A DNA stretch of 64,000 nucleotides from Antedon mediterranea (lineage: Eukaryota > Echinodermata > Crinoidea > Comatulida > Antedonidae), in contig NC_092680.1 in NCBI RefSeq assembly GCF_964355755.1, positions 16,531,001 to 16,595,000 on the forward strand, read 5' to 3'. Below are positions 12,101 to 61,913 of this stretch, piece after piece. Below the pieces are notes generated by a model, which saw nothing but the letters and a program-made list of their open reading frames with translations, had not been told where the DNA came from and did no database searches. A program made the translations under genes and the position numbers. Position 1 is the first letter of the stretch; each line of letters opens with the position of its first letter.

Positions 12101-15100
12101 TTGTCATTGGTTAAAACGCTTGCGTTGCGTTTACGTCCTTGCGTTACGTTCTAGTGGAAACCAAGCTTTATTGTCTATAACTTCGCTTGCTATTGGTTAA
12201 AACGCTTGCGTTGCGTTTACGTCCTTGCGTTACGTTCTAGTGGGAACCAAGCTTAAGTAATAATTGGACATAAGTCTAAACTATTCACCGATATGCAGAT
12301 GTCCTAACCATTAGACCATTGGGGCTTTCATTGTATTGTTCAAATCCGATTGGATAGTGACTCTTTAAAACACTCGGTTGGTACGGCGTAACAGCACTAT
12401 AATGATATATTGTCTGTTCATTCATACATTCTCTGATGTTTCCTGTAAACAATGGCATAACATAAGTAAATGTTACTTGAAATCATAATGAAAATATATT
12501 TTAACCAGTTTTTGTAATGTATAATACCATCTCTTTTACATTGTGTTTACATATTAATTTCAGATTGTATTTACAGGACAGGCAGTGTAGCTTTCTGTCA
12601 AGAACAAGGTAGGTAAAATCTACAAATGGGAATAATGAGTTATCTTAAAGCATATACATTACATATAGCAACTTATACAATCGAAAATGAACACAACACA
12701 TCTCTTTAAATGTGAAAACAATTTCATCTAGTTTATAATTTATGAAATATTTCTTGTTAACATTTCTCTGAACGTAGTTTGTAATACAGTCATTTGCAAA
12801 CAGTTTTTCCCCTTTTTTTTTTATTTACCACACCTATTTTGGTTTTTAGCCGTACAATATGTAGGACAGCCATTTGAAATTGGAGTTTCCACTACCGGTA
12901 CGCCGTTGGACGACGACATGGAAGTCCCGAATTATTTTATAAGATGGCGTCAACCAGTACACATCAACCCAGAAACACCCCTTAAGTATTATGAATTAAT
13001 TTATTTTGAAGACGGTTCAGTGGTAAACGAAATAAAGCTGGTAAGTTTTTTTATCCTATTCTTTGTTTAGGAACTGTTGAAAGCCTTTATTTGTGCTAAA
13101 AAAACATCTACGATTATTTTATATTCTTACTAATTGAAACGAGATGTGAAAACGAGATTAAGAGCAGGAATAAATGTTACGGTTATGTTAATGAAGAAAA
13201 TAAAAAAAAGCAATTGAAGAGTCCAGTAGACCTATATCTAAAGTAATAGACTTAATGGAAAAGTGGAAAGGGATTTTTTTTACTTTATTTTTTTGGATAA
13301 AAGATATGTTGATGAGTTTGAGGTTGGTAATTTATCATCAATTATGTCCGGATTACCTTATGCAAGAATGTAATCAAGTTCATTGGAGATATAGTCTTAG
13401 AACAACCAAGCATTACTTTGTCATCCGTAAAAACTGTTTGCAATTCTCCTTTTTTATATAATTGTATTTCTAATTGAAATGTTCTACCGATATTCATAAA
13501 TAGTGTTACTCTTTTCTACCTGTAAAATAAAACTTAGAAATCACTTCAGAAACTCCGTTCCATAATAGTCACAAATAAAAGTCATGCTTGTTCTTCGACC
13601 GTGTTTTTCTACTTTTTTTTGTATTCTGATTTTTTATTCAACTGTAGGAACCCCAATGCACAAACTAATCCTTCTTATAAAAATAATTGGGTTGTCCTGA
13701 ATCTATTGTTTTTGGTATTTTTTCTCTTGTATTGTACAAAACAGATCTGAAATAAAACCAAACAAATAAAATGTTTTTCTCTGGAGAAACCCAAACGTTC
13801 GGTTCAAACTTGGTGTAATTTGTTGTATTTCCACTATGTATTGCTTATTTAAACATTTAAAATTATATTGTTTTTTTTAATTCCTAATCTTCTGCATAGA
13901 ATATTTCATATGAATCGGGAGGACGCGTTGATACAGAATTCAACAATCTGCGTTTTTATACATATTACAAATTAGAGGTAAGTAAAACCGAGTCGATTCC
14001 ACCCATCATTCCACCCATCATTCTACCCGATTCTTAGTGCTGTATCTCCACATACACGTACTAAAATATTTGCTATATATAGTATAACATCTCATTTTTA
14101 TCACATGTAATGCCTGTAAGTTTAGATTAAAGGTAGGTTATGGTACAGTATATGATACTAGGAGGTAGACCTGTGAAACAGTAGACATGTGAAACGTAAC
14201 ACTTCTGATGTTGTATTTCCACTTAATATCCATATGATACAGGAGAATCGGATGAACACAAAAGGTACTATTGTCTGAAGACAATATGCAGTTATCTACA
14301 ATTTATAGTCTGTGACTATAACATATTCCCTTCTCTACTATACTGTGCGAGAATCGGCTGTCGATTCTTGGTTATCTGAAAGAGGACGTACGAAACCTAG
14401 GTTACTATACTACATGGTTACTGGTCATTTGATTAAAAAAACTATTTGTTTCTAAATTCTCAATAAAAGATATTATTATGTGTGGCTTGTAAGAGGTTAT
14501 TGGAGTTGGCAACTCAGTAGTGAAACTACATTATGGTTTTATAGTGTTCAGGCCTGACATAATGTTTGAATCAAACGTGACATGATGATAATTTAGTACG
14601 TAATTCGTACTGAAATACTAAAACACTGCGAATGATCAGTAATTTCTGACCATTGTTGTTTATAATGTAACAGAAAACTATATTTTTTAGATTACTCCTA
14701 TTGTAATTGGTCAAGATGGATCTAATATTCGGGGGCCAACCGTTAGTAGGGGATTCGATACAAGTGGTAGGTCTTTCATAATCTTTTATAACACACCAAA
14801 TTAATTTGTAAGTAGTATCTTATCAGGTGGCACGCGTTATTTTCATTGCACGTCCATCTGTTTAGATGCACGATGGAAAGTTTTACCACCACGGCCAAAT
14901 TTCGAGCAAATCTTTCTTAATGGGCCTATACTGACATATTTGATTCAAGCGACGGATTAAATGTTCAATCAGTAAAATATGATTAATGATTATTTGTTAA
15001 ATTTATATCATAGGACTATTTATAAAAAAAGAAATACACTCTTAATTATGTATTAACCATTCACTGATTTGCATTTTGTAGGCCCAACTATTTTCACGAA

Positions 15101-15221
15101 TGAACAGGACCCGGACCCAGTTGCATTAGCTCTTATCATTTCTGCTGCCGTAATCTTTGCAGTGGCTTCAATTTTGGTGTTTGCATGGTTAATGTATAAG
15201 GAATCTCACAATTCAACTTGA
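9150..15221 (+). CDS. Gene B: single-pass membrane protein with FN3-like ectodomain, no kinase
   Basis: Ten exons keep one open frame: 9150-9252, 10227-10331, 10779-10879, 11568-11624, 11822-11888, 12564-12608, 12850-13040, 13900-13977, 14691-14766, 15082-15221; 963 nt, 320 aa. Signal peptide MIRRYVAVLIVLICCFYICL..., then QQTCCDKLE. Two FN3-like segments follow ([33 protein letters not shown]) with paired Cys. Last exon gives a TM helix (VALALIISAAVIFAVASILV) and a short cytoplasmic end, WLMYKESHNST. Exon order, all phases and three exon lengths (57, 67, 45) equal those of gene C exons 1-10, so the two are tandem paralogues. No kinase exons are seen downstream before 21 kb. Ligand and partner are unknown; a decoy or co-receptor role is inference. 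FN3 assignment is by pattern only. Confidence 0.85.
11889..12255. mobile_element. MITE family C, nested palindromic copy
   Basis: Two left ends (11893 and 11985, motif AAGCTTGGTTCCCACTAG and variant) are followed by two right ends (closing near 12170 and 12254, CTAGTGGGAACCAAGCTT). Inner arms carry GACGTAACGCAAGGACGT and TTGACCAATCACAAGCG with their complements. The order L-L-R-R suggests one copy inserted in another or a partial duplication. It starts at the donor of gene B exon 5 (11888). Other family members: 30128-30240, 36498-36797, 36846-36980 and 52989-53122. Confidence 0.85.
12270..12345 (-). repeat. tRNA-like fragment (A-box end only)
   Basis: On the minus strand CCAATGGTCTAATGGTTAGG resembles the 5' half of a Glu/Gly-type tRNA with an A box. 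No B box follows, so this is a truncated SINE or tRNA relic next to the MITE. Confidence 0.4.
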
Positions 15222-17333: not shown

Positions 17334-17864
17334 TTAATAATGTCCGTTTCTTTCTTTTATTCTTTCAATAATATTTAGTATCTCCAAAAGTTTATCATTT
17401 TCTCCTGTTGGTTGATTTTTCTTGCTAAACCATTCTTTATTTTGATCTTCTTTAAGTTTTATTCTCTCAAAAATATCATTCATATTTCTCGCTCTCTCGT
17501 TTGGGCTCTTAACTTCGTTTTTTGCCTCTAACCTTTTCTCTACTGTGTCTATCTCCAAAAATGTATCATTTTCTCCTGTTGGTTGATTTCTCTTGTCAAA
17601 CCATTCTTTATTTTGATCTTCTTTAAGTTTTGTTCTCTCAAAAATATCATTTATATTTCTCACTCTCTCATTTGGGCTCTTAACTTCGTTTTTTGCCTCT
17701 AACCTTTTCTCTACTGTGTCATTCATCCTTGAACGATATGTGATCTTTGATTGGTTGGTGTATCCCACAGTTAGTGTTATCTTGAAATGTGGGACGTAAG
17801 TTGATAGTATACCACCACACACAAAAGCAAGAAGGATGCACAAAATTAAACGATATTTCATGTC
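17334..17864 (-). CDS. Possible small type II membrane protein with duplicated stem
   Basis: Open frame on the minus strand. The likely start is the ATG at 17861-17859 (175 aa), just after an acceptor-like TTCACAG; an ATG 18 codons upstream gives 193 aa. MKYRLILCILLAFVCGGIL is an uncleaved-signal or type II anchor. It is followed by a charged, probably helical segment with two nearly identical 57-residue repeats (DTVEKRLEAKNEVKSPNER...NQPTGEND). The architecture resembles the anchor plus stem of Golgi glycosyl- or sulfotransferases, but no catalytic domain follows: the frame stops at HY and nothing coding is seen down to 16.7 kb. It may be an isolated exon, a truncated gene or a novel protein. 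Confidence 0.45.
   Translation of the reverse strand, partial: DMKYRLILCILLAFVCGGILSTYVPHFKITLTVGYTNQSKITYRSRMNDTVEKRLEAKNEVKSPNERVRNINDIFERTKLKEDQNKEWFDKRNQPTGENDTFLEIDTVEKRLEAKNEVKSPNERARNMNDIFERIKLKEDQNKEWFSKKNQPTGENDKLLEILNIIERIKERNGHY
17381..17722. repeat. 171-bp tandem duplication inside the 17.3-kb ORF
   Basis: Two adjacent copies with a 171-bp period (57 codons). Only a handful of substitutions separate them, and the reading frame is kept. Most differences change the amino acid conservatively (V/A, I/M, T/I, D/S). Confidence 0.93.
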
Positions 17865-20800
17865 CTGTGAACACAAATTATATAATGTAGTATAATCTAT
17901 AAAAATAAGCACCATAAACGTACAGTGTATATACCTAATTTACTTGATTATTTCGACAGTCATTTTGAAATAAATGTCATCTGTAAATACAATGGGGTTT
18001 TTTTTAAGTTATTAGAATGTTTTCAAATTTTTCAAGTGTTAAATTTGTTCAAACCGATTATGAAACTAAATATTATCGTATGTTCCTAGAAAACAATATA
18101 ACATTTGTGAGAAAATAATGAAGATAATAATCTTTCATAACAAAAGAATTTTCATTATCACACGTGTAAATCTCAGTATACACTATCAAACTAGTTTGTC
18201 AAAAAATATGTGATGTGCCCAATTATGGTAGTGATATGCCCAATATGATAGTGATATGATGTTATAGTGTCCAATTATATGGGTGCATCATAATATTATG
18301 TTGTCACATGAAGTGTGATAATGGAGAACCCGGCAATAATGAACCTCTTCCCTGGGAAAACTTAAGATCTATTTTTCTTATAGTTATTCACCAACGAAGG
18401 AGAAGGATGATAAGCATATTAGTTCAGGCCTGCTATAGTGTGTACTATCCAGTCAACCACATGAAAATACCAATAATTGCATACAATTGTTACTAGCGAT
18501 CGAATACAAATATACAATTTGGCTAAACTTACCGTTACGGTTCCTCCGCCATAAAAGGATAGTATGTTGTATTTACAGTGTTCCTGAGAGGTTCTACTGT
18601 TTACGATATAACGAAATCATAATCGCATTGTATACACCATTATTAATATGACCAGGGCAGAGTGATGCACAATATATGACAATGGTGGCATATTAAAAAT
18701 CAATCAACTTAACGGATTCAATACAATTGATTCAATTACGATTTTCTCAACTTCTCAATTGAACGTTGATGATGGAGTGATAATGGTGAAAGTGCAGCTG
18801 TGATAGTGTTTAAAAGGTGGATAATGCAGGGAGTTCTATAACTTATTTACTTTACTTATTTACAACTCCCTGGATAATGGGAGGCATAATGGCGGAGATG
18901 TTGATAATAATGCATGAGAACGATAGACTTATCTGTTGATGATGATTGTGTAATGATTTCTTTTTAATTGTTGTTGTCTTTTTTTCTGCTGTTGTGTGGT
19001 ACTTTATTTAAACCATGCATAGGTTGGCAGTAAAGGTTCTGTTTCACGAAGAGAGAACATAATGTGTTTCAATTCATTCACCCACCGATGAGAAATTTCC
19101 ATAGCACTTAATTGTTGGAGTAAATTAATGACATGACGGATAGACCTGACGGATAGACCTTTTAACTGAGAAATTATCAGACAAAATTAGCTATTACCCA
19201 AAAATCAAATTTTCAGTAGGCCTAAGTGACATAATAAATAGTTCAAAATCTTCGATTAAAGAATTTATAAATAAAAACTTGAAAAATGTTTTCAAAGTTT
19301 AATATGATGTGTGATGTGCCAAGCCTACAGTACTCTATTTCTCTTTCTAAAATACAAAAATACGTTAGAAAAAAAGTTTAAAAAATGTGTTTTTGCTAGA
19401 AGTAGTTCAACGGACTGATGCTAATTTTAATATATTTACACTCAATATGAATCTTCATTATTTTTAAATTCGTAGGCATGGAACTCTGACATTTCCAAAG
19501 CATAAACATGCTTATAATCGCCACTACATCCTACATATAAACTTCCGGTTATTATAATATCATTCCAAATCAATGGAAACAATATTTTAGACTATAAGAT
19601 CCGGTTGTGAAGTGGTGTACTAGATCTATGTAATCCTCTCTAGTTTAGTGTGGAATTCATTAAGACGTTTTCACTGTATTACACGCATTGACCAGTTAGT
19701 AGTGACATATGATTGTTTTATTCATTGTATCTATAACTTATATTATTATTCGTTATTAAAAACACTGAACCGACGTCAATAGAGAATTGGAATATAGAGC
19801 CAGTACAAGGTAGGTAAGAATAAAATTAACTATTTCTTCATTTGATAGTATATTACTGAATATGTAGCCTGATATGGCCTATTTAGTGGACAGTAAGATA
19901 CAGTAACAGAAACGTGTTTTTTTGCCCACGTATAGCGAACATTCATTATATTTGTTAGCGTACAATTATCTGCATATAATTTCTTAAGATACCCGTTTCT
20001 TTTTATTTGTAAAGTGGCGTATCTACGATTTTGAAAAGCTTTGATAGTCATAATAACATCAGAATAATAGTCAGGTTTTGTAAATATTCTTTGGTAGATG
20101 AGTTCTTTCTACACTAATTATAAATCAATAATAAAAATAATCAGTACAGTAGCGTGGTGTCAAAATAAAATAATAAGCCACGTGCTTTGTAACATCACAT
20201 GTGAAACACATGAGATGCTGTATTTCGGAATTTGCCTATGAGTTAAGACATTTTCATTATGTTGGGATACAGCAGAGTCTGGTGTTGTATGAAGACCTAC
20301 CAAATGAGCTAGTTGTTTTATTTTATTATTATTCGGTTATTTTCATTTTTCAATAAACGCTCGGCTAGGCAAATACATTATAACTTCAATATCAGTAATC
20401 AGTAATCATTTCCCTGTTATAGTTAATAATGAAATATTGATTATAAATTAATTTCATGGAATTATTTGTGGTATGAGTAATGTAAGCTATCATAATCCAT
20501 ATAATCACAACCTAAGACTATAACAACAATTATTCTGACGGAAGAATAAATAACAAGGTCAAATGTTTTAGACAATATCATATCACAGTGTAGACTTTAA
20601 TCAAATTTGCAATGAAAACTGTTATATATATAATTATATACTGGGAGAATACTATGTCGGTTATCGAAAACGCATTAATTAAGCATTTATAAGCCTACTG
20701 TTTGAATGGAAATATATTCTAGAACTGTTTGTTAACGTTACTCTATTTTCCAGTGAATCAAATAATGTTCAATTCGTTTGTGACGAAAACGCAGATTGGT

Positions 20801-21056: not shown

Positions 21057-24000
21057 ATGTCATGGAGAGGTTGGTTTATTACTTATATTATCATCACATT
21101 ATTTTCACCATTGTCTCTTGCGGAACAGACGTGTTGCAGTGAAGAACTCCAAGGTAATCAGATTTAAACGTTTAAAACTTTATTTTATTTCTGTTACGAC
21201 CAATGTTGGTCTAGGCCGAATAGGAGTACTTGAAATAAAGCTCTGTCTACACTATCAAACTAGTTTGACCAAAAGTGATGTGACCAAATATGGCAGTGAT
21301 ATTCTTCAATATGGCAGTGATATGACATCACAGTTTTTGTCACATAAAGTTTGATAGTGTAGACAGAGCTTTGGACAAAGAGGTTTTTGGAACCGTAAAC
21401 AAACATAATCAGGTTGACAAATATGGACTATATTTAACAATCTTCTTTATAATTCAATGCAAGCTTGACTCTATTATTTAGCAGTCGTTCTAATCAATCT
21501 CTGGTAGCCGAATATACACTGTACTGATTCCTCTTCATAGACCTATAGCCTATCTCTGATTTCAACACATAGTGTGTGCGCAGAAAAGCTTTCAAATACC
21601 GCGCATAACAATGCTGAATTTTTATTCGTCCACTTGAGGGCGATTGATTTGCATGACATCTGCACAAAAAAAAACCACTTTGCTTTTGTATTATTGTCTG
21701 TGGATGGTTATACACGTGAGAGTCGCTTTTTGACGACAAAACCTCAAGCTCTCACGGCGTAAATCTAAATTGTGTCTATCATAGCGTTGATCCTAGGCCA
21801 CAGCAAGCAAAAACCGTAAAAACAACTTAGCAATGAATCGCCCTGAGAAGACATTTCGACCCGGTAGGCCGGAAAGTTGCAGCCAACTTGTTCAGGTGTT
21901 GAGGTTTATGAGACATGCTACTAATATGTAATTGATCATTATCATTTGGAAGTATGTTGATGTATCTTAATAGATGATGAACTTGTTGCTGGATTTAACC
22001 TACAGACAGAGTTTTCAACTATACAACTATCGGAAGTTGACAACTTAACTCAATGGGAATTGCAGGTCAACATATCTTGGTCAAGGGTGGAAGGTTAGTG
22101 TTAATTAGCATAAAATCCTTCAAAATTATTGCATTTTTTTTTAATATTGCGAATACTTTATTGTAATTAATCCCTATTCAATTGCTTCTTTTTTTACATT
22201 GTATACATAATGTTTCAGCCTTTGGTGGCTGCCTTCTGTTTGTGAAGTTTTATATAAATGAATAACTATAAACCTGAAATATAAATATAATGGAATAAAA
22301 AAAATATCCTGTATACAAAATGGCGGTCGTATTATATTGGTCTACTAGTGGTAAATTGTTATTAAAAAGTACTATTTATTTCGTGCCATTTTAGGTTACG
22401 ATAGGTACATTGTTGAAATTGAGGCAGTTAACAACTCCGTGGATGACGGATTATGTAATTTCTTTCTGACATGTCCATTTGATGGTCTGTGGGTGAGTGG
22501 CATTTTTCATATAACTAGTATTTCAGCGACACTTTATGTACAATTTAGGAAAACGTTCGATACAAAAAACTAGTAAATAAATGATTTTACATTTAACAGG
22601 TAATATGTAGACCATTTTTGGAAAAATAATTATCTTAAAGACGCTGGGCCGGTAAAAACTTGTTTATGTTGCAAGTATTATAGACACGCCTGAAAGTGTT
22701 CTAAAACGTGTTGATAACATAATTTTTGACTTTTTGTGGGATGGAAAAAGAGAAAAGGTTAAAAGAGTAGTTCTTATAAACGAATATGAAAGTGGTGGTG
22801 TTAAAGCGCCTGATTTCAGGTCACAGGTTAAATCTTTAAAAATATCTTGGCTTAAAAGATTGTATAACAATGAGGATTCAAAGTGGAAATGTCTGCCAAA
22901 CACATATTTTAATAGAATAGGCCCAAAAGACATTATTGATAACATATCATATATTGATAAGAAAAATGCTATTTTTAAAGCCATACCCGATTTCTATAAA
23001 TCTATACTATGTATTTTAGTCAAACTTAATAGTGGTATGACTAAACGTCAATTATGTTATGATGATATATTGCATCAACAACTCTGGTATAACAAAATGA
23101 TTTTATACAATGACATGTCAATATTTTTTAGAAACTGGATAAGGTCAGGTGTGCGAAATATTAAGGATATTGTAATTGAGAATAGGTTCATTAACGCAAA
23201 TGAATTACTTGATATGCTTAGGTATAAATCAAACTGGATTGCTGAATGGCAAATTGTATTAAACGCAATTCCAAAAGAATGGAAAGAGAAAATCTTTTTA
23301 AGGGATAAAAACCAAAAGCACTCAAAAACAACACACGTTCGATGTTTGAATATGAGTAGCAAACAAATATGTTCTTTCTTTATTAAGGAAAAATGTCTAG
23401 AACCATCCAAAAGTAAAACAAAATGGGAAACATATTTTAACATGGAGAACGATTGGTCTGTAACATGGAAAAGAAAAATTAAAGATATTAAAGATAATAA
23501 ACTTAAACAGTTGAACATCAAACTATTGCATTGTATAACACCTACCAAAAGAAGGCTGTTAAAATGGAAAATAAGCAACACAGATACTTGCCTACAATGC
23601 AACGTAGTAGAGGATGATGCCCATTTCTTTTATGAATGCACTGAAGTAAAACCCTTATGGGAATATATTAACGTTTACACCATGCACAAATTTGGGATTG
23701 AGGCAAATTATCGAAACATTGTACTAGGTACAGGAAACAAATATGTAGACCACATGTTCTCTATTGGATGCTTCAGCGTTTACAAGGCACATACTTTGAA
23801 AAATGTAAACAAATGGACCGGATCATTGTCTCGTCTTTTTATGGCGGAAAAAAACAAAAGATCTTACCTTAACCACCTATTATAATTTATATTGATGTGA
23901 ATCTGATTATTTAAAATATATTACATAATAATGTTGTATAATACACATAGGCAGTTTCATTTTATCTTATATGAAATATAAATAAAAAAAAAAAAAAAAT

Positions 24001-24403
24001 TGTATAAATTAATATTGAAAACAAAAAAGAAACGTAACGCAACATAAGTAACGCACGAGAAGATAAGCAAACAAATATAACCATGAGACATAAAACTAGA
24101 CACAGGAGTAAGAAAAGCATTTTTAATATTTTTGTTTTTGTTTTTTTTATTCGTATTTTAAAATAATGTATATAATCTGTATATAGGGTATAAATGAATT
24201 GTATGTCAAAAATACTACCGAAAATAACTATACAACATTAGTAAATGTATCTCCTACAGTACATTTATTAGTTAAGTGTTCACAATGTTAGATGTTGAGA
24301 ATTATAGAACAAAAAAAATACTAGAAAATTATGAAAAAAGGTGGATAACAGAAAAGAAATAATGCTCTGATTCCAAGAACAGTAACGTTGATAAAATAAA
24401 AAA

Positions 24404-24437
<34 letters not shown>

Positions 24438-27400
24438 TAAATACACCAAACCAAACAAAAGTAAGAATAACAATGAATAGTTATTATTATTATTAGAAAT
24501 AATTGTATTAATCTGTTGATGAAATGAAATGAATAAATAGTGGTTAACGCCACAAAAGAGAAAAAAACAAAAAAAAAGGTAATATGTAGATAACGTTGTA
24601 TTTCTTTGCTTCAACTCCATGACAATTTAATAAATAAAAACTGAAACAAACGTCTATAGAATATAGATAGATAGAACATTTAATATTCCAATAATTTTAA
24701 CAATAAAGATGTGTATAATATTTTAATATTGTAACATTAGTAAATCATTTTTATAGGAAAATAATTGGAGAATATTCAGCGGTATTCAGTTTGGATCTGT
24801 TCAAAGAGTGACGGTAAATAAAGGATCAATATAGTATGGTTCTTATTATATTTTAAATAAGATACAGGCCTACCGTATATATGCTTTGTAAATTATAAAC
24901 TTTAGCTGGCTAGTAAGTATTTCAAGAGTAAAACAACATTTAAAACACATTTCTTTCTTCATAATGTTAGATATTGACATTGTATTTAATTTAATTTAAT
25001 TGTCGTAATATATGCATCGTGACAAATTATACACTTTCTTTGCAATTAAAATCTTGTAGTAAGAAGAATATGACAAAATAATCATATTCGGAAAATACTA
25101 AAGAAAGAAAAAATGTAGGCCGAATGAAAATGTTAATAGATTAGGCCTAAGGTTTGCGGAATAACGTCTTTCCCAAAAGTAAACAGAGTGAAGTAAAGTT
25201 GAGTTTTCTTGATGTAACTTTAGTTTACGCAAACCTTATTTTACTACTGTTTATTCGACATGCAATATTTAAACAGTTTGTATTTTCTACTGTTTATAGA
25301 TGTTTGTTACAGAAGTATTAGAAACAAAGAGAGGACCTTATATCAGAAATTATCCAGACTCTCCAGGTAATAACAAATTATAAAATTATCAAAACAAATA
25401 AAAGGTATTTATTATTATTATTTAACTTTATTGATATTTATTGATATTAATATTGACGCTTTGGTTTTTTTTTTCAGATTGTTATGATGAAACAGGGAGT
25501 ATTGACTTCTGTAAAACACAACGTAAGACGAGCATACTTTCATTTTAATATTTTACTAAATTGATTATTTAATACTATAATTAATAGATTTTAATCGAAA
25601 CAAACTTTATAAAACATACCAGTTTGTTTTTATGACATTTGCTGCTTTGTCTAAGTTTTACTTCTGTAAAAAAAATGAATTTGAATATTGTTATTTTTAG
25701 CCGTACAATATGCAGGCAAACCAATTAAGGTTGAGGTAGCAAATATGACGATTAATGATGAAGACCGTGTGATAGTTACTATTGGCTGGCGACAACCAGT
25801 TCACATCAATGCAATTACACCTCTAAGCTATTACCAAATATTCTGGTTCGGTGAAGAGACGGCGACGAATAACATAAAACTTACGGTAAATATTGAAATG
25901 TCTCAATTAAAAGAAAATATCTTTAACAACTGATTTTCAATTAATATAATAAGTAATTTAATATGGAAATGTTAAGATGTTAAGATGTGAGGCAATAAAC
26001 ACTAACGAATTAAAAAATAAGTAATATAATATATTGAGATCAAGTTTAAAATGAAGAATACGGGCTATAATCTCAGGTGCTTATAATGTTTTATCAGAAC
26101 TGTAATCATCATCCGAGTCTGAAAATCTCCTCGCGATCAGTAAAAGTTTACGCTTGGTTTGTTAATGTTGCACGTTTGCTACTCTTTCTAAGTCCAAACT
26201 AATTCCCAGAAGAAAATCAAATATCTATAATTCTCAAACCCTATTTTATTTGATTTGTAGGATGTTGAATTTAATCCTGGTGAATATGTTATAACGGTGT
26301 TTGAAGAACCTTTGTTTTTGAATACATCCTACACATTGCAGGTAAAAGTAACATTTCTAAATTATTTTCTCATTTTAAAGAAATAAATGAATTGTTTCAA
26401 ATCATTTGTGTCGTATTAATATTGGTCCCCAAAACGAACATGCCTGTTCAAAGTATATTGTTCCTCCTCAGAATGTATTACTACTAAATAGACCTAGATA
26501 CAGTACAGAAAGGAATGAATTAAGATAATTATATATTTAAGAGAAAGTAAAAAAAAATTGTTTTATGTTTATTAAATTTAGAAAGGCTGCCCTTATTTAT
26601 TTAATAACTATTTATTCTTCAACGTTTAGGGACTGAAATTGATTATTTATGAATATTTTGCCCATCCCTTGATATATAATGTTTTATTTATGTTTATAAC
26701 TTATTTTTGTGTAAATAAAAGAATAATATTGTCTATCTGAATCATTACATTTCTTAGGTTGGTGCAGTTGTTAATGAAAATGGATTGAACCAGCGAGGTT
26801 TATTTCGAGAATTCGTATTCATCACATTGCCACCAACAGGTAACGAATGATTATGATATTAACAATTATAGCCGCATCATCATCACCAACACCATCATCA
26901 TCACCAACACCATCATCATCACTAACACCATCATCATCGTCATATTGAACGTGTACGTAAAATGTTGTGTTTTTACCGGAACATGGCTTTCAAAGTACGC
27001 ATGAAATCAAATTTTATTTTATGGTTTACATTTAGTTATCACATTACTGCCAGTGGTGAATGGATCAAACGCCCTGCTCATAGCTCTAGTCGTTTCTGGC
27101 AGCGTTGTTCTGATAGTTACTGTAATACTAATACTTCTCAGGAAGTCGTTTTCTGAACGGTTTGATCGTCTTCGGAAAGAGGACGAAGATGATATCTTAG
27201 ATTTGGGTAAGTATATCTGAAGAAACATTATTATACAGACGATTCTCATATGCAGGTGGTGACATAACACTTTAAAATAGGCAATGTTTGAGGAGAACGA
27301 TTGCCACTTATCAGCAAAATAATATTATAGGCCGCGTATTATTTGCTTAATATGGTACAGTATAATTATTATATTATAATTATAAGAATGTAATGCATTT

Positions 27401-30400
27401 GGCCTAAAATGTACCATATGACTATTTAAACTGAAGATAATAATCATTATCATCATCATCGCTCTGCAGTAGTTCTGTGGCTGTCATTATTTCAAACTGT
27501 TCTACTAATACGTATAAAGTTTAAATGATGCTTCATGTATACCTTGGGTTTTATTACCTGGTATATACTTTACAACTGGGCTAATTTGATAATTTAAGAA
27601 TCGGTGCTCGTTTGTAATAATACCCATACACATAACTGTTGAATTTATTGTCTGTGATATTTATAACACAACGTAACAAAATTCACAATTTTGAATTTTC
27701 AGATGTAATTATTCCGAAACACAGTAAGCGTAGACCGACTCTGATCGCCTATCCGGCTTACGAATTAGCCCGAAGTGACATATTCTGGATGGAAAGAAAG
27801 GAGCTGGGACGTGGTTATTACGGCGAGGTTTACAAATGTAGTGCTACAATTGATGGGATGCCAACAGAAGCAGCGGTAAAAGTACCAAAACGTAATGTAT
27901 AGAATGCCATTATTAGAATGCAATATAAATAGTGATTAGGCTATCGAAACTATTGTCAAACGGTTTTGACAATCATAATGCATTTCTATCACCAAACGGT
28001 ACCGTGAACAATGCTATATTTCGAGTCGTGAGAAAGTCTCATTTTACCAATGTCAATGAGATTCATCAACCCTTTCCTTTAATCACCTTATACTGTTATA
28101 AAAATAGTGCCTTGAACAGGCCATGTATGTTAAAAAAGAAAAAACGCTTTCACTAAAATATTGTCTAACCAATTTAACGTTGATTTAATCAACAGAATTT
28201 GCTACGTCCACGGAAATTGAGGACTTTGTTCACGAGATCAGCTTAGTAATAAAGTTGGGAAACCATCCAAATTTGGTCAAATTTCTTGGATGTTGTACAA
28301 CCAGCGATCCACTCATGATGGTCAATGAATTTGTTCGATACGGGGATCTCTTTTCGTTTATGCAAAAGATAAAAAATAAGGTAGCCAATCTTTCAGTTTG
28401 ATATATGTAATCAACGAAACCTGGTACGAGTATTGCCAACAACAAGAAACACTAGTTCAACTTGAACTTAGCAGAGTAGTATTCCAAATTAACTTCACAT
28501 CATTTAAATTTTAGAAAGCACCGAAAGAGAAAATATACGATATTCAACCACTAGACCAGCTGAACATGGCAAGGCAGATTGCACGAGGAATGGTAAGGAG
28601 GTATCTAAAATTACCGTATAAACAAAATACAATACCTAATAATAATCCTAATAGTTTGTACCTGTGATATTCTACTGTAGGCCTATTTTCCAGAGATCCA
28701 ACTCCGCTTCAATATACCTTTATAGAGTATACCATACAGGCTTAATAGATTAATCATTCATAACCTTACAATTATTTTTGGCAATTGGCAATGTAAACGC
28801 TCATCTTTCAGGAGTACATTGCGTCACAGAGATGTGTTCACGGCGATCTTGCGGCTCGAAATATACTAGTTGACGAAGATTTAGTTGTGAAAATAACCGA
28901 CTTTGGGCTGTCACGTGATGTGTATGCGAGCAACTACGTCAGATTAACTAAAGAAGCTAAGTTGCCATGGAAATGGTATAGTATAGAGGCTATGACAGGA
29001 GAACGAAAACTGACCACAAAGGGTGATGTGTACGTTAAATAATTACATAAGTTTTTAAAACCTTTACTAGAAACAACCTATAGTACGGTATACTACAGAC
29101 CACCTGTTTCAAACAACAAAAAACTATACTACGCCGTGCATAAGGATTATTCGATAGTAATTTACATAAAGGTGTTCAGAAAATACACACTGTATAAAAA
29201 AACTCCAGCAGTGAGAGTTGACAATTAAAAAGTGTGTTTTTTTTTATTCCACAGATGGTCGTATGGTATAGTTTTGTTTGAATTATTTACATTTTGTGAT
29301 CCACCATACCCTTTGATTCCATCGTTGTCAGCTCTGGTTGAGTTCCTGGAATCAGGACGACGAATGAAGCAACCAGTAGGATGTCCAGACTCGGTGTAAG
29401 TAGCAATAAGTTTTAGCTGTTGGGTGCTTCACACTCTGATACGTTGTTATTTGATTTTTGTATGAGACCAACAAAGGCAGAACTAAGTTTATCGATTGTT
29501 CTAAATTCTACAATCAATACAGCCTAAAAGGAAATTCTTAAACTAATATGATTTCCATTATTTTCTTCGACAGTTATTCAATTATGATGAAGTGTTGGAA
29601 TACAAATCCAAATAAAAGACCAACATTCACACAACTTGTCGCTGAGTTCGAGAAGCTCATTGGTGCTGAGAGTGTATCTGATTATCTCCCGATATTTGAG
29701 GTGTTCTCTCCGTTCAATTTACCTAATATTTTTTAATCGAAACCAACAGAGATACTTACCGCCACTAACAGGTTTGATACAAAAAAAGCCAGGACTGTTT
29801 AAGGTACCTTGATTGGTCCAAACATCTCTAGATTCAGGGGCTGCCATAAGAGTTAGCAATGAACGGGACCCCAGCTCCATAACAGCACCCGATATTCTCA
29901 GATGGTCTGCCATCAAAGCTCTAACCAACGTTGTTTAACTTCGGTGATCTGACGAGAACCGGTGTTTCAACGTGGTAAAGCCGTTTATTATATAAAAATC
30001 TATGTTAAAACTACATTACTTTAATATCTATCATTTACTAAATTAGTCATGCGGAGTTTGTTATAATCAAAAATCAATCAATTGTAGAATCAGAGAAACA
30101 TCTAAGTTTGATTCGCACGTAACATCGACGCGCAAGTAATATGGCCAGTCGTGGCAGATGGCAGATCAGATGATTTGCCAATTGTGATTGGTCGAACTAC
30201 CTGGACTCTTTGTCTTGTGTCCTAGTGGGAACCAGCTTTTTTAACTACAGTATGATCTTTGTGTAATATTTGTTATTTAATTATCAAAGTCAGGTAATGT
30301 GACGTTGACCAACCCTAAAATGGAACAGTTATCAAGAAGTAATATATCATTGGTTGACAAATCACTTGCGTCAGAAACTTCTTCGATCAGCACACAGGTA

Positions 30401-33400
30401 TGTATTGTTGAAACAGTCAATCGTTATTGCGGTAAACAAATGGTCACATGGGTCCAATTTGTATCTGTAACAATCAATCAATATTTATTTCCATCATAAT
30501 CATAAAAAAAAAAAATTAAAATGGAGGACGTAAAACAAGGGCAATCCCTGAAAAAACGTTGTACAACTTTACAAAGAAAAAAGCAACGAACAAAAAAGAT
30601 ACTGTTTGGGCTCCAATACAAGCATTTCATTCTCGGTACCGTAAATCTACTATATACATAAAGGAGAGATAGAAAAAAACAAACAAAGAAAGCGAATATC
30701 ATCTATACGTCGTCAAATTAATGTGTTGCGAGACCCTTCATATGTATACATGCCGACTACAGTAGTTTAGAAAAAACATTAAAACAATTAAATATTATTT
30801 ACGTAATTTTTAGAATGAGAATCATACTTTAGATGCTAGAAGTGATATGTCACAAGAAGATGCAGGATATGAGAACATATTAATATCACAGTCAGCCACA
30901 TACACTACAGATATTAATGGTGATATTGTACTGAACGACGGTGTTTGGGTGCAACCAGAAGAGGGATATATAGAACCAATGAAGAATGATGAAAAGGAGG
31001 TATTTTGAAAAGAATTATGAACTTGTAATTAATAAGTTATATCTATAGAAATAAGAGAATTTCGAAAATAATATTATAGTAACATTTTAATTAATTAAAC
31101 CACCCGATTCGTGTATATGATGCCATATGCCCTTTTTTCAAAAGCGTTATGTCAAAAATGTTTTCACAAGCAATAGACAAAGTTCCACGATTCTGCTTAA
31201 CTATTGTTAAGACGGAGTGCATTGCATCTTGCAATAATACTATCAACTGAATGTTTTGTGTGACTGGCTTTAATCTAAGCTAATATTACATAGTTCGTCC
31301 TAATTTTGTTTTATTTATCATTTATTATAGGACGATAAGTATAAAGCAAGAAAGATTAATTCATTAAAAGATACAAAATATGACGTTTTACCGCCACTAC
31401 AGTCTAAGGGAGACACTCCATATATGAGAGAAGATAGTAATGGGTATATGGCACCAACTGATGTAGAAACAGCCAAGGTAACGTATCAATTTCCTTCTCT
31501 GTTTGCTTTTTCTTTCTACCCAAATTAGTAGAACCTGTCAAACATATCACCGCACAAAACAACCAAACAGTTTTTGTTGAAGTTCTGGAAGCCACCGTGC
31601 TCACATTGTATAGCCTATTCTAAATTCTGAATTGTGACGTTAAGTTTCAGTGACCTTAAGTTTGGTTTGTTATCATGTTATTTATATTGAGCAATCTAAA
31701 GAGCGCCATGTTTTTAGAAAATAAACATATGACGCCATTATTATGTGGAATTGTATGCAATGTAATTTTCACAAACCTGAATAATATTCGTAAAATTCGT
31801 ATTATTTAAAGATCTCTATTTCTATCAATATTGTTGTTTGTGTAACTAATAACAATCGCATATTGTGAAATATGACCTTATCATTAGAAATCGTATTATT
31901 TTCAACAGATGGATTTAAAAAACGATAAAAATAATGAACATGATAAAAAATACGATGTTTTTATCAAGAATAATGATGATATCCAGTTTGAAAATGAACT
32001 TATTCAGCAAGATAATGAGGGATATACAGAAATAGACGAAGATGAGAATAAAGGTGACGTATTGTTTGAAAACCAACCATCGACAACAGACAATGATGGA
32101 TACACTGAAATAGATGAAGCAGAAGATGGCGCTCTAAAAAATAATCGTTCACCAAATTATGGGGATATAATATTTGAAAATGAAATGAATCTGGACAAAG
32201 ATGGTTATACGGAAATAGATGATGATAATGAAGATAATAAAGTTCACACTAAAGAAAGACCGGTAAGAATTTTTGGAATGAAAAATTGTCTTTGATAGTA
32301 AAATCGTAAACCATATAATAAAAATTATATTCAAAAACATTGCTTGGATAATTAAATATCTACTGATATTTCTTATAGATGATTCTATAGAGTTTAAAAA
32401 GGTAATATACAATGTCGAATATCGAATAAAAATAATAATCTTTCTAAATAAACAGATTGTTGCGTTATAGATTGTCAAATCAGTGTTAGATACTCTTCCC
32501 TGGTTAGATTGTATTTAGTTGAAATGACCACTTATGTTAACATAGTTTTAATACATAAGATGAGTGATATCACTAAATGTGCATATCTATCTACAACTTT
32601 CAGAACTATGCTTGTATGTCCCTCATGATCATTCTTGAGAACTCTTCATGTGTATAAGGGCGAAATTTCAAATGGTTATCGGACCAGTTTTTTTGTAACC
32701 TAGATTTAAATCTATTTATGAAAAAACGCAAACAACATCTTGTGGAAAGGTTTTCCAATCCTCAACTGCTCTTGATTTAAAAAAAAGTCTCCTTATTTCC
32801 AGTCTTTTTGAGCATTGACAACTTTAAAAAATGACCTCGTGTTCTTGTAAAAAAATTCCGAAATAGACTATCGCTTTTAATAAAAATATATGTTGTTTAT
32901 TATATTGTATATTTTAATAATATCTGCCCTTTTTCTTCTGTATGCCAACGTTAGTAGTTTCAGAATGTTGAGCCTATCAACATCTCCAGTGCCTTTTAAA
33001 TCAGATACTAATCAAGTGGTTCGCTGCTGCACACGTTCATGCAAATTTAAAAATCTTGTGGAACCTTGGAATCCAAGCACTTCCACCATATTCCATAATA
33101 TTCCTAATCATAGATTGATAGAGATCTTGAACATTTGATCTAATTCACAGAGTAAGTTTTCTAAAATTGGGAACGACATTCAAGGATATTGGAGCACAGT
33201 ATCTCAGAATGAGACCAATGAAAAACAAAAGCCTAAGCAAGTGGATCGAGATGACATCTATTTCGGAAAAGAAACAAAAGAAAAGAAGCGATCAATAAAA
33301 AACATTGACAACAAATATTCTAGTGTATTTGTCAAAAATAATCAAAGAGAAGTTGATGAAAAACAACATGTAATGTCTTCAAATGGTAATGACAAGAATG

Positions 33401-35398
33401 TGCTTGGCGATCCCGAAGACATATACTTTGGAAAAGAAGCGGTTTACAGACAGGACAGTAAAGGTTATGCACTTCCAGATGACGTCGAAGACCAGGATGG
33501 AAAACAGGTTTATTCTGATGACACTCGGAATGTACGTATTCCTAATCTTCAAGCTGAGGATCTCAATGATATATACTTCGGAAAAGAAGACATTTACCGA
33601 CAAGATAGCAAAGGATACACACTTCCAGACGATGAAGATGGTGAAAAACTTGTGAGTTACTAGAATAATAATAAGTCACAAATATTCGATTTTGAAGATA
33701 AAATGGTACCCAGAAGTTCAAGCGTAATGCAAGCCAATGTTATGAATAATGGCTACAGTATATTTTTTCTTTAAAATACTAGATTCTCCTCTAAAATACT
33801 TGATTCTCCTGTTTGAATGAATAAATGCGCTGCATTTATTGTCAAATATATACACATATTTAAAACTTGTTGTTTGTACACAGACAAAGCTCTTATTATA
33901 TATAAGATTAAGGAGTTGTGTGTTGTGCTATAATTTAATGTTCTCGTTTGGAGATCATTAGCTTTATGACAAGTGGAGAATCGGTATTATAATGTTATAC
34001 AAAAAAAAAAGCCATTATGAGCTTTATACTATATAATTTCTTAAACATAAATAATTACGATCCATATTCATTTAAGATTTCTACAAAGCATACAACGAAA
34101 GATAATGCCATAGACGTATTATTTGACAACGATACATCAAAACTAGAAGAGAATAAAGAAGGTTATCTGCTACCGACAGGAAATGAAGAAACCGAACAAG
34201 TAAGTCAACATTCTTTGTTTTATGTTAATTTTATAAAACTATTTTTGTACATAATCCTGTTGGAATGCTCTTCAATCTGAAGTAGGCTCGACTCCTTTTC
34301 TGGAATATTTCAAAATAAGAATGAAATCTCTTATGTATGGTGGTCAAGTTGTCAAGTAGGCCTAAGTATTTCTTAAATCCCTAGCAATGATACTACAATC
34401 TCTACGTGGTTTGTTAGCAGCCTATAAAGCTACTTTAATATTATAAAGTCAATTGGATTGTTGCCAATATATAAACTTTAATAATATGTGTCCAATTGTG
34501 GAAAACTGGTGGAATATTATATTTTCTTGTAGGTTAAACATAAACACATGGAACGAGAATTAAAGAAATATGAAATTGTGGAGTATGAGAATGTCACCTC
34601 CATTAATGTCATGAAGTTAGCAACAGAAGATAAAACAACAAAGGTGAGGGAAAGAGTTAGGATATGAAGGCTACAATTTGTCAGAAAATGGGGATAAACG
34701 TAAACTAAATTGTGTATACTTTTGAAACCTTTTCCTACAAATAAAAGCATGGTATTATTTAAAGCTTTAAAAATGCTAACTTCACTTCAGTAAAGCCCGA
34801 GGAATTGATAAATTTGGTAAAAGTATGCCAATGGAAATCATAAGCCCGAGATTTAATTGAATGAACCCCAGTGCAAGATAGAACAACTAGATTGTCATCA
34901 GTTTATCCAAGACAATCTAAGCTCACCATGCTAAGATAGGACTCGTAAAAGTCCTTTAATCTTCTGTCTGGCTGCGAGAAAATACTAACAGTACTGTACT
35001 ATGAACATAATTTCTTCGCGGAGCGCGGTGTCTGTCAAATGGCGTAAAATCGATTGTGTCACAGCCACAGATAAACCCTTAGATCTCCGAATCCTGTTGT
35101 TAGGATTTCCTTGGTTTATCATGCTCTATGATTACTATAGAAATACCAGTCATAATTGATTACCAGATGTTGATCTTTGTTTACAAGAACATAATATCTG
35201 TATGTCTTGTGACATATCTTGTGAATCAAAAGACTAGGACGTTGTTGTTGAATTCCCTTTTTCTTATTAAACATAACACCATTCATTTTCTTCTATTAGG
35301 AGGTTGAGGCAAAGAATCCTGTAGAAGAAGAGGCGCTATATGTGAACAGTAAAGTTGACCCAGACTTATGGAGACCAACAGCTCATAAATACTTCTAA
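21057..35398 (+). CDS. Gene C: receptor tyrosine kinase with multi-docking tail
   Basis: Predicted 24 coding exons, 3558 nt, 1185 aa: 21057-21153, 21974-22093, 22395-22492, 24757-24813, 25300-25366, 25478-25522, 25701-25885, 26261-26341, 26758-26839, 27036-27206, 27703-27891, 28196-28380, 28515-28592, 28812-29029, 29255-29395, 29574-29700, 30290-30397, 30814-30999, 31331-31477, 31909-32262, 33151-33651, 34089-34199, 34533-34643, 35300-35398. Signal peptide, TCC motif and FN3-like ectodomain (exons 1-9) parallel gene B. Exon 10 gives the TM helix ([20 protein letters not shown]) and a basic stop-transfer. Exons 11-16 encode the kinase and 17-24 the Tyr-rich tail ending HKYF. The weakest join is exon 16 to 17: donor GAG|GTGTTC at 29700 and the acceptor before 30290. 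If unspliced, exon 16 stops at 29736 and yields a tail-less receptor. No one-to-one vertebrate orthologue was recognised. Confidence 0.85.
21238..21373. mobile_element. MITE family B, complete copy
   Basis: Inverted termini AAAGCTCTGTCTACACTATC and its complement (GATAGTGTAGACAGAGCTTT) enclose about 90 bases with repeats of the word ATATGGCAGTGATAT. It lies in gene C intron 1, less than 100 bases after exon 1. Confidence 0.92.
22599..24591 (+). mobile_element. 5'-truncated L1/Tx1-like LINE with target-site duplication
   Basis: The insertion is bracketed by a 13-bp direct repeat GGTAATATGTAGA (22599-22611 and 24579-24591), the second copy directly after an A-rich tail. Inside, an open frame from about 22680 to 23885 encodes the C-terminal part of a LINE ORF2: [22 protein letters not shown], and a Cys-rich knuckle CLQCN...HFFYEC. 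Endonuclease and RT core are absent. Two more A/AT tracts (23985-23999, 24396-24440) lie inside, so an extra segment may have been added 3' of the LINE. It sits in gene C intron 3, sense orientation. Confidence 0.85.
26875..26942. repeat. 18-bp CATCATCATCACCAACAC minisatellite
   Basis: Nearly four copies of an 18-bp unit in gene C intron 9, merging into a CAT-rich end. Confidence 0.9.
27703..29700 (+). other. Tyrosine kinase domain of gene C
   Basis: Six exons. P-loop [15 protein letters not shown]-type lysine in AAVKVPK, helix-C Glu in [18 protein letters not shown], hinge [12 protein letters not shown]. The catalytic loop is HGDLAARN (HRD arginine replaced by glycine, catalytic Asp and Asn kept), then [16 protein letters not shown] and [11 protein letters not shown] in place of the common [19 protein letters not shown] and NPNKRPTF complete the C-lobe. 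AARN and WSYG identify a tyrosine-specific, receptor-type kinase. All catalytic residues are present, so it should be active. Loss of the HRD Arg suggests less dependence on activation-loop phosphorylation (inference). Confidence 0.92.
30128..30240. mobile_element. MITE family C, right-end fragment
   Basis: Ends TCCTAGTGGGAACCAGCTTTT and contains TTGTGATTGGTCGAACTA, as in the family C arms. It lies 50 bases before gene C exon 17. Confidence 0.7.
30290..35398 (+). other. Tyrosine-rich docking tail of gene C (eight exons)
   Basis: About 538 residues, acidic, low in hydrophobics, with close to 28 Tyr. Motifs in order: GYENI, GYIEPM (exon 18); KYDVL, GYMAPT (19); three GYTEID (20); DIYFGKE three times with GYALPDD and GYTLPDD (21); GYLLPT (22); [10 protein letters not shown] (23); ALYVNS (24). 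YxxP is the known Crk/CrkL-type SH2 consensus, YxN the Grb2 type, and YTEI is close to the Src-type pYEEI. All eight exons are phase 0 at both ends as predicted. Actual phosphorylation and partners are unknown. Confidence 0.85.
32640..33120 (-). mobile_element. Decayed LINE fragment (CR1/L2-like C-terminus)
   Basis: On the minus strand, interrupted frames read [43 protein letters not shown] and [13 protein letters not shown]. These are recognisable blocks of the C-terminal part of CR1/L2-type ORF2 (…RTRGHS…, VWNSLP-like) with stops and frameshifts. It lies in gene C intron 20, ending 30 bases before exon 21, antisense to the gene. Confidence 0.7.
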
Positions 35399-45482: not shown

Positions 45483-48400
45483 ATGGCATCTAAAGAAGAC
45501 CTCATTGAAGCTGAAGTAGAAGGTACTGTATTTTTCTTTTCTTTTTTTATTTGAAACAAAGTTACCTTGCTTCTCCATTCTCTCTCTTTCCTTCCTACTC
45601 CATTACAGGCAATATAAATCTCACTAAATGATAAATTCAGAACATAAATAATCTTGAATGTAAATGGGTAAAATGGGGTTCATACCGAACATCTAAGCAT
45701 CTAATTTAAATATTTTGTTTATTTTATAATGTAGAGGTGACGTCAAAGTTGGAAGAGTTTATTGACAACGGTGATAATATTTCAGCACATCGGCTTCTCA
45801 AAAAATTGGAGAATGAAAATAAATTTCATGTCCTTCGTTGTACATTCCCAAATTATTCACGGGTAAAAGATGAAAATGTTGGCGATCTTTCAATCCAGCA
45901 ACCTACAGAAAGATCTTTGGAGTTGCTTCATAAAGCATGTGAAAAGGGCAATCAAGAATTTGTTTTGTTTCTTTATGAGTATGGAATGCCATTGGACCAT
46001 GAAGGAAAAATGGTATGTTACCTAGTTTAAGTTTCAGTTCTCATCATATTGTCTCAAAAGTTTGTTGCAGGATTTTAGTAAATTTTCATTTTGTGAACAC
46101 ATGTTGCTTAATTAGCTTGACATTTCATAAATACTGTACAACCGAACTACATTTGAATTCTACATGTCAGACTGTCATTGTAAGAATTTAAGAAATAGAA
46201 ATAAAATAACCCAACTAGTTACTAAAGCAACAGTCCATTACCATTCTACATAAAATTATTAGTTTCATAATTTTCCTCCCTGCTGACTTTCGACTGCTAT
46301 TGCCTTTTTTGATGTTTTTATGCCTGTATCTTGATGTTAATTTTACTTTTTATAAATATAAGTTGTTTACATTTGTAATGCTGTGTAGATTTTATACATA
46401 CATATTTTATGCAATTATTGTTTTTTTACATTCAATTTTTTGGCCATTTTGAGTTGTAACTGTAAAGAATAATAATAATACAATATTTGATGTAGTTTAT
46501 ATCAGCTGCGTTTTTAAATAACATTACAATATTTGAGAAAAACATGATGAAAGAGAAACGTTTTGTTACAGGGCAGAATGTCACACTCAGGTGGCTGGAA
46601 AGAACTAAAGTATATTTCTTTTGTCCTTTAATCTCCTTTCAATTTGGCACTTAATACATAGATCACATAAAAATTACTTGTTGTTGTTTCCACTTATGAT
46701 TAAACATTGAAAAAAGTGAAGATTTTTCAATCGTTTTTGCAGGAAAAAATTCAGATAAACATAATAATAAAATAATAATAATAGTTAATACAATTGAACT
46801 ATTATTAAAATCACTATCAATTACATGCAACATGCAATTACAATTTATAATACATACAATAATAAAATACATGATCATTAAAATGTATAGTACCTGTAAT
46901 TACAAAATAAGGAAATATAAAAAGTAAAAGTCTTGAGACTTCCTGTCACTGGAGTGGGTTAGGTGATCTACTTAAATCAACAGAAAAAAGGAACAAAAAC
47001 AAAATTGTAATTGCAAATAGATTTTCTCCATTTCCCTGTTGACTCAATGGTGACATGACAATAAACATTAAATACAGATAGATAGTGTTATTATTAACAA
47101 GCTGTCTATTTGTCTATGAGAACCAAATGTAGCCATCAATAATCAACCAAGTAGTTGTTTCAAATTACTCTACTTACCTACTAAAACAAATAATGGTTTG
47201 CCTTTAATATAAAAATACAAAATAAACAGTTAAATTTAAACTAAAAACTTCAAGATAATGCCTGACTATGTTTTGCCTTCAAATTATCGATTTATCAGTA
47301 CTGTATATACATTTGTACAACAGTACTGTAGATATAATTTTTTGGTGAAAGTGAATTACTTGTGTAATATAAAAATGGCCTATTCAACAATAACAACATT
47401 TTAAAGGAAGTTCATTCCTTAGCTTTGATATCAATGCCTGCCTAAACAAGAAGTTTATTCAACAATGACAACATTTTAAAGGAAGTTTATTCCTTAGCTT
47501 TGATATCAATGCCTGTCTAAACAAGAAGTTTATTCGTGGGAATTTTTCACTACAATTCTTTGTAATATTAGAAGTAGTCTGTTTCATTTTACACACACAA
47601 TGAGATCTATTTATTTTCAAAAGGTATTCATAATACAGTAGTAACAATTTACATAGCTAGGCACTTGATTCAAACATATTGACTGTGTGTTATCACAACC
47701 TAAACATTGTGCACACATTCAACGTCATGGTCTGCAAGCTTACTCTTTTAATCATTTATACCCAACAGTTTAAAGGAATTCCCCCATTAAAATGCATGAG
47801 TGCTTTTACTTATCAAACTTTTATTTTCAAATTACAATGTTTATTATGGTATTATCAAGTAATTTTACAATTTCACTATCTCATTTTGATTATAATTTAT
47901 GTTTTCTTTGCATTTTATTCTGAGTGACATCAAGATAGTTGTAATCTGAGTGACATGTACATTAAGTTTGCTTCCTATACTAAGTTGTAAAGTCGGTCAA
48001 GGTTCATAACTTGAAATGAATTCCATAATCTTATTAATTGATTTATATCTCAGAATTTCATAATTAATTAAATTTAATCAAACAAATTATGTTTGGAATC
48101 CTTGTGAAAGTAATAGACTTTTAAATTTTAAAGGAAACTTTTCACAAAATGTGCTATAGTTCTAAACCAAAAGGTATGTTTGAGCTGCCAAAGTTAACTT
48201 TTGGATTTTTAAATTGTCAACATATTTTTTATTATCTATTGTATTATGTTAAGTGTGCAAATGAAATGCTACTGTATCAGTGTTTATGAGTTACCTCTTT
48301 GTGATTTCATATACAGTACAGTAGTTTTTACCAAATGTATACTGTTATGTTATATATTATATAAAACGTTCAGGTCATTATGAAGCATAATTAAAGTGGT

Positions 48401-61774: not shown

Positions 61775-61835
61775 GTACATTTTTATTTACTTCAGTTCCT
61801 CTTCAGTATTGTTATCTTTGTTTTGTCTCTTAATA

Positions 61836-61913
61836 GGGAGGTTTCGCAACCTTACGAATACGATAACGAAAACGGATACGTCACACATTTGTGAAACTTT
61901 TGAGCTGATCCCC
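61836..61913. mobile_element. MITE family A, left end only
   Basis: Seventy-eight bases nearly identical to the left end of the copy at 4921 (GAGGTTTCGCAACCTTACGA ... TTTTGAGCTGATCCCC). Homology stops abruptly where the LINE begins. It lies in the LRRK intron after exon 14. Confidence 0.9.

Follow-up and report, generated by a model that had tools for sequence, protein, structure and literature searches.

A crinoid receptor tyrosine kinase gene whose predicted tail appears to have grown by copying a two-part tyrosine-bearing unit

Docking tails built into receptors, repeated docking units and clusters of YxxP motifs in membrane proteins that have no kinase are already known, as judged from the available portions of the reports that describe them. 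RTKB2 of Monosiga brevicollis carries six RM2 repeats in its C-terminal tail, and these are phosphorylated by the kinase and bind a Src-type SH2 domain whose consensus is fit by the YEAI sequence of RM2 (PMC3584944). Among membrane proteins, DCBLD1 and DCBLD2 carry seven to eight YxxP motifs and are bound by CRKL (PMC6029619). A choanoflagellate (Salpingoeca) transmembrane protein carries 10 such motifs and is bound by a choanoflagellate Crk-type SH2 domain, for which the binding peptides have the form YDVP (PMC5043372).

Here we describe a related arrangement in the crinoid Antedon mediterranea, found within a stretch of 64,000 nucleotides (contig NC_092680.1, positions 16,531,001 to 16,595,000; hereafter the window). 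Our main reading, to which we assign a rough probability of 0.6, is that the locus encodes a receptor kinase of a group marked by the catalytic loop HGDLAARN, and that its tail of 542 amino acids has grown by duplication of a single two-part docking unit.

The gene model, rebuilt from the sequence, comprises 24 exons on the + strand (window positions 21057-35398) that form a single open frame of 1189 amino acids, with GT-AG borders at all 23 introns. When read by eye, this model has the layout of a receptor, with a signal peptide, an extracellular part and one membrane span followed by a kinase. The signal peptide and extracellular region occupy exons 1-9 (21057-26839). By eye alone this region looks fibronectin-III-like; a Pfam search of it at E values up to 1 returned no match, and hence neither the Ig domain expected of an FGFR nor a cadherin domain. 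Exon 10 (27036-27206) encodes the transmembrane segment, a hydrophobic run read directly from the model, together with the juxtamembrane region.

Just upstream of the tail, on the same strand, lies an intact-looking tyrosine kinase (exons 11-16, 27703-29700; residues 366-629), which is evident from PDB searches and from a match to the Pfam family PK_Tyr_Ser-Thr (PF07714; 273.9 bits, E 1.6e-81). Four further Pfam matches of the 1189-residue model, at E values up to 1, all fall inside this domain. The Lys, the Glu, the catalytic Asp and the DFG motif are all present, and Gly replaces the Arg of HRD to give HGD within the catalytic loop HGDLAARN. The best 60 PDB matches listed for the kinase are to FGFR1-3, one RET and a tandem EGFR entry.

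Several other features were observed in the window. A partial colinear copy of the receptor's extracellular exons lies at 9210-15221 (+), with E1-E7 matched in order. The match to E7 is strong by itself (E 1e-13), the others have E values of 0.001-0.3, and exons 8-9 were not found in this copy. It encodes a membrane span followed by a stop about 8 residues later, with no kinase, and is a possible decoy receptor. A frame of 201 amino acids on the opposite strand (17337-17939, -) has a signal-peptide-like stretch and a charged block that begins DTVEKRLEAKNEVKSPNER and occurs twice; no Pfam family matched it over the cut-off. LINE-type fragments are present within receptor intron 3 (22668-23882, +; zf-RVT, E 2e-5, under the cut-off) and at 61909-63756 (+; RVT_1, E 2e-24). 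Finally, the region at 45710-61891 (+) holds an ankyrin-like frame (E 0.0018, under the cut-off) and leucine-rich-repeat exons (LRR_8, E 3e-10), followed by a stretch that is Roc-like by eye and has no Pfam match; perhaps this is a Roco/LRRK-type gene.

A search of the genome (354 Mb, nearly all of it in contigs C1-C11, with the window on C11) for the kinase gave 128 exon matches, from which 20 loci were fetched for comparison. Fourteen of these (L003-L016) encode HGDLAARN and have common borders for the exons compared; the remaining six (L017-L022) gave no HGD reading. By sequence, then, the receptor kinase and these relatives form a group of at least 15 HGDLAARN loci, which is enlarged in this genome. 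In a tree of exons 14-16, the locus nearest to the receptor kinase is L003 (support 0.939). HGD stands in place of HRD in 14/14 of L003-L016, and the same letters, HGDLAARN, are printed for decapod PVRs in the available portion of a report on those receptors (PMC11024359). In L005 (C11:103501-113400), positions 64-486 hold five copies, 96 bases apart, of DLFSISRQIAKGM, which is the end of kinase exon 13, and these are located before exon 14.

Exons 17-24 (30290-35398) add 542 amino acids beyond the last kinase exon, and every one of them starts and ends in phase 0. Whether they are joined to the kinase depends on intron 16 (29701-30289), where the donor (GAGgtgttc, score 2.8) is the second weakest and the acceptor (score 0.1) the weakest among the 23 introns of the model. 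If the kinase instead stops after exon 16, where reading onward would add 11 residues before a stop at 29734-29736, exons 17-24 could constitute a separate gene or be expressed from an internal promoter, and would yield a soluble Tyr-rich scaffold that begins at the in-frame ATG at 30320 in exon 17. This ATG has an AAAATGG context, and exon 17 pairs its poor acceptor with a good donor (9.0). Because of the weak splice signals at the junction and the ATG of exon 17, such a separate gene is the main doubt about our reading.

The weak donor alone is not fatal, since the donor of exon 14, which is fixed by kinase homology, scores lower still (0.1), and since the corresponding donor in L003 has a comparably low score (3.3). 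Moreover, kinase and tail share a strand and match in phase 0, and the predicted models of L003, L006 and L007 likewise carry phase-0 tail exons after the kinase, in the latter two with good donors (6.6 and 7.0, respectively). Neither AATAAA nor ATTAAA occurs in intron 16, which is weak evidence for an intron of 589 bases, and Pfam detects nothing in the tail that could place a free scaffold at the membrane. Splicing of exon 16 directly to exon 18, whose acceptor scores 6.4, would also suit a single gene. We therefore regard the two-gene alternative as unlikely, and the tail exons and kinase as quite probably parts of one gene. An additional short exon at 29750-29803 (RYLPPLTG...) was considered and left out of the model; its donor is good (7.2) and its acceptor weak (2.8). 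The first AATAAA past exon 24 is at 35597.

The tail begins with a Ser-rich linker (exon 17, 30290-30397), which is the least certain exon. In composition the whole tail is 23% Asp plus Glu, with 70% of residues within the set DEKRNQSTPG and no Cys, and the tail is probably disordered; a Pfam search of the model at E values up to 1 gave no domain in it. Of its 27 Tyr residues, 10 directly follow Gly. The original prediction, that the tail holds five YxxP (YIEP, YMAP, YALP, YTLP and YLLP), three YTEI, three DIYFGKE and three YxN (YENI, YENV and YVNS) motifs, and that nine Tyr in the named motifs follow Gly, is borne out by our counts; the tenth Gly-Tyr is GYWS. A motif check of the tail revealed neither YxxM nor NPxY.

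To assess chance, the same tail was shuffled 20,000 times. YxxP (five observed, 0.95 expected; P 0.0014), Gly-Tyr (10 observed, 1.28 expected; P 5e-5, the lowest value that the test can give) and Y[TSEDVA][EDNT][ILV] (five observed, 0.74 expected; P 0.0007) are all in excess. When the three recent repeat copies are removed, there are still four YxxP (P 0.006) and six GYxx[PIV] (P 5e-5). The number of YxN motifs, which had been presented as a cluster, is explained by chance (3 versus 2.43 expected, P 0.44); after the same removal the count is four (P 0.12), one of which (YDNK) is created by the removal itself. The acidic or polar context proposed as a mark of the Gly-Tyr sites was also dropped, as Asp or Glu stands just upstream of 10/10 Gly-Tyr and likewise of 14/17 other tail Tyr residues.

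The amplified repeat is larger than these short motifs. The unit is 24-27 amino acids long and has two halves, D[IV]x[FL] (in fuller form D[IV]x[FL]-x-x-[E/D/Q/G]) and then GYxx[P/I], with the Tyr of the second half located 14-17 residues past the Asp of the first. Seven copies are distributed over exons 18, 20, 21 and 22. Exon 18 (30814-30999) carries GYENI and then unit 1 (DIVLNDG..GYIEP), and exon 20 (31909-32262) carries units 2-4, each of the form D[IV]xFEN[EQ]...GYTEID. In exon 21 (33151-33651), a lone DIYFGKE half-unit without a Gly-Tyr half precedes units 5 and 6, in which DIYFGKE leads to GYALP and GYTLP, respectively; unit 7 (DVLFDND...GYLLP) is in exon 22 (34077-34199). A repeat search assigned the DIYFGKE copies of exon 21 and the DIQFENE sequence of exon 20 to a single family. 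Three exons are outside the pattern: exon 19 (31331-31477; YDVLPP and GYMAP), exon 23 (34533-34643; YEIV and YENV) and exon 24 (35300-35398; YVNS, then the stop).

Asp, Gly and Tyr are the only residues identical in all seven aligned units. Among the 20,000 shuffles, 65 contained one match to the unit pattern, one contained two and none contained three or more, a comparison that overstates significance because the pattern was written after the copies had been seen. For a held-out check, a profile made from the exon 20 copies alone was scored against 300 shuffles. It recovers the unit of exon 22 (8.4 bits, 0/300 shuffles equal) and, in exon 21, the Gly-Tyr half (3.7 bits, 3/300), and it misses exon 18 (101/300 shuffles as good) and exon 19 (49/300), so that the support for unit 1 is a pattern defined with the copies already in view. 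DIYFGKE had been listed as a Tyr docking motif in its own right. However, its Tyr is present in only two of the seven full units, with Gln, Leu, Ile or Val at this position in the other five, which makes it a poor docking motif; DIYFGKE looks instead like the first half of the unit, with an incidental Tyr.

The copies have diverged in a manner that indicates that their protein sequence has been held. All six core pairs among the three DIYFGKE and the three GYTEID copies show no nonsynonymous and two or three synonymous changes each (P 0.004-0.025, for pairs that are not independent of one another). Between units 5 and 6, both in exon 21, there are 11 synonymous and five nonsynonymous changes over 23 codons (binomial P 2e-5), and the pairs of exon 20 units, placed in register with a one-residue gap for unit 4, give P values of 0.0014, 0.033 and 0.031. 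Thus, the proposed amplification of one docking-like unit is supported by the seven copies and their synonymous-biased divergence, with a unit that is larger than first described. Codon usage trained on exons 1-16 and compared with 400 stop-free intron windows also identifies exons 18-22 and 24 as coding (equalled by 0 to 14 of the 400 windows), with a weak signal for exon 17 (22/400) and one for exon 23 that is not clearly above that of intron windows (61/400).

These data also bear on the idea that the repeats are low-complexity acidic filler, expanded neutrally, with the motifs as by-products. The acidic composition of the tail, its lack of Cys and the chance-level number of YxN motifs are as this idea would have them, but the bias toward synonymous divergence between copies is not, nor is the excess of YxxP and Gly-Tyr over shuffles that persists even without the recent copies. 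We consider neutral filler quite improbable, and return to a duplicated docking unit as the better account of the tail.

The likely readers of the Tyr sites can be considered from known consensus sequences. YTEI fits the consensus of Src-type SH2 domains, and YENI, YENV and YVNS that of Grb2-type domains. YxxP sites, with Pro at +3, are read by RasGAP, Abl and Crk, of which Crk prefers YDxP. The original prediction had likened the YxxP cluster to that of p130Cas, with Crk as a reader. We located the genome's own Cas through a match to CAS_C (E 7.2e-45), away from the receptor gene, and compared the two sets of sites. In the Cas exon, 11 of the 12 YxxP motifs with a preceding residue are YDxP and none follows Gly (a thirteenth, YTKP, lies at the exon edge and is omitted from the count). 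In the tail, by contrast, Gly precedes every one of the five YxxP and Asp never occupies +1 (Fisher P 0.001 for the difference in Asp from Cas). This difference argues against the p130Cas/Crk comparison, and the YxxP sites of the tail may serve a reader of Pro at +3 other than Crk. The genome yielded 58 SH2 exon matches, from which 16 loci were fetched and two compared with PDB. Both of these candidates were set aside, as L030, which by eye resembled a Grb2 SH2 exon, has SHP-2 as its best PDB match, and L039, taken as a Src-like SH2 exon, has p85; neither of the two loci compared thus came out as Crk or Grb2.

A different role for the Tyr residues would be as endocytic YxxPhi signals rather than SH2 sites. 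YTEI, YENI and YENV fit the consensus for such signals, and YDVF and YGDI are further candidates. That consensus does not allow Pro at +3, however, and Pro stands there in four of the seven units (YxLP in three, YIEP in one). Furthermore, the invariant positions of the unit are Asp, Gly and Tyr, whereas the hydrophobic position varies. An endocytic function for these sites is therefore most unlikely.

With SH2 docking as the preferred function, a plausible course of events can be outlined. Ligand-driven dimerisation would permit the kinase to phosphorylate the Gly-Tyr sites in trans. Duplication would have left Asp, Gly and Tyr constant while positions +1 to +3 diverged, such that one receptor could present two or three SH2 codes in multiple copies to its presumed readers. 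A bolder and rather doubtful extension is that this is a new kind of docking unit, in which the constant D-[Ile/Val]-x-Phe half would bind a target that is not an SH2 domain, either a second site on a partner or the receptor's own kinase, and the variable Gly-Tyr half would multiplex several readers along one receptor chain.

Tyr-motif tails appear to recur in the HGDLAARN group, and the receptor described here has the longest among the tails modelled. L003 was modelled to its end and most others over the first 2-3 kb, so misses are not proof of absence; within this scope, four of the 14 relatives carry YxxP in their tails. These are L007 (YETP, YMTP and YEIP, with P 0.014 for three YxxP in its tail exon), L009 (YIEP, together with YENL), L015 (YLLP) and L003 (YQKP). 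L006 and L012 are close copies of L007 in which a stop precedes YEIP in the matching tail exon, perhaps as the result of a shortened tail or a decaying gene.

The L003 tail is a chain of phase-0 exons, two adjacent ones of which constitute an exon duplication with 26/37 residues identical (positions 3028-3474 of the reversed locus, C2:35880501-35890400, both phase 0). A suggested homology between this tail and that of the receptor, based on YANI/YENI and GDFL/GDIV by eye, was rejected when 399/500 shuffles scored as well; for the best-looking exon pair, 1067/2000 shuffles were as good. Searches of the genome with exons 21 and 22 gave self matches only, as did searches with exons 17-20 apart from one match at E 1.8.

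If the tail is indeed part of the receptor, this would be an animal receptor with a multi-site scaffold as part of its own polypeptide, made by duplicating a unit and changing its reader code. Its endings (three YTEI, three YxLP and one YIEP) would then form a natural series in which to follow the evolution of SH2 specificity and valency, and the related loci, of which there are at least 14, with shorter tails where modelled, offer a comparison set. Listings of the open-access literature, a scope that takes in few subscription papers, gave no animal receptor with this unit.

Comparison with described systems places the receptor among several partial likenesses. Its kinase resembles those of the FGFR, RET and PDGFR/VEGFR group, but it has no detectable Ig or cadherin domain. 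The C-terminal tail of the Drosophila insulin receptor is also a long extension with docking sites of its own, although these are NPXY and YXXM, with no repeat unit described in the available text (PMC3895810), and both motifs are absent here. p130Cas/BCAR1 shares with the tail a set of repeated YxxP in one stretch, but is a soluble protein with SH3 and FAT-like ends (PMC5043372), whereas no Pfam match to SH3 or CAS_C (FAT-like) domains was found anywhere in the receptor model. The original prediction that YxxP clusters are unusual in a receptor holds in part, since DCBLD1, DCBLD2 and the Salpingoeca protein show that such clusters (7-10 motifs) occur in the cytoplasmic parts of membrane proteins, but none of these has a kinase of its own in the available descriptions. 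The two Salpingoeca peptides reported as tested there are YDVP, a form absent from the receptor tail. The closest known amplified docking tail is that of Monosiga RTKB2, by analogy with the description of RM2 rather than its letters. Both proteins are receptor tyrosine kinases with a repeated Tyr-bearing tail unit, predicted here from the genomic sequence, in a tail that is disordered in RTKB2 and probably so here, and YTEI would fit the Src-type consensus as the YEAI of RTKB2 does. RM2, however, spans about 80 residues and is, in the available portion of the report (PMC3584944), confined to Monosiga RTKB proteins, whereas the unit described here is 24-27 residues long and ends in YTEI, YIEP or YxLP.
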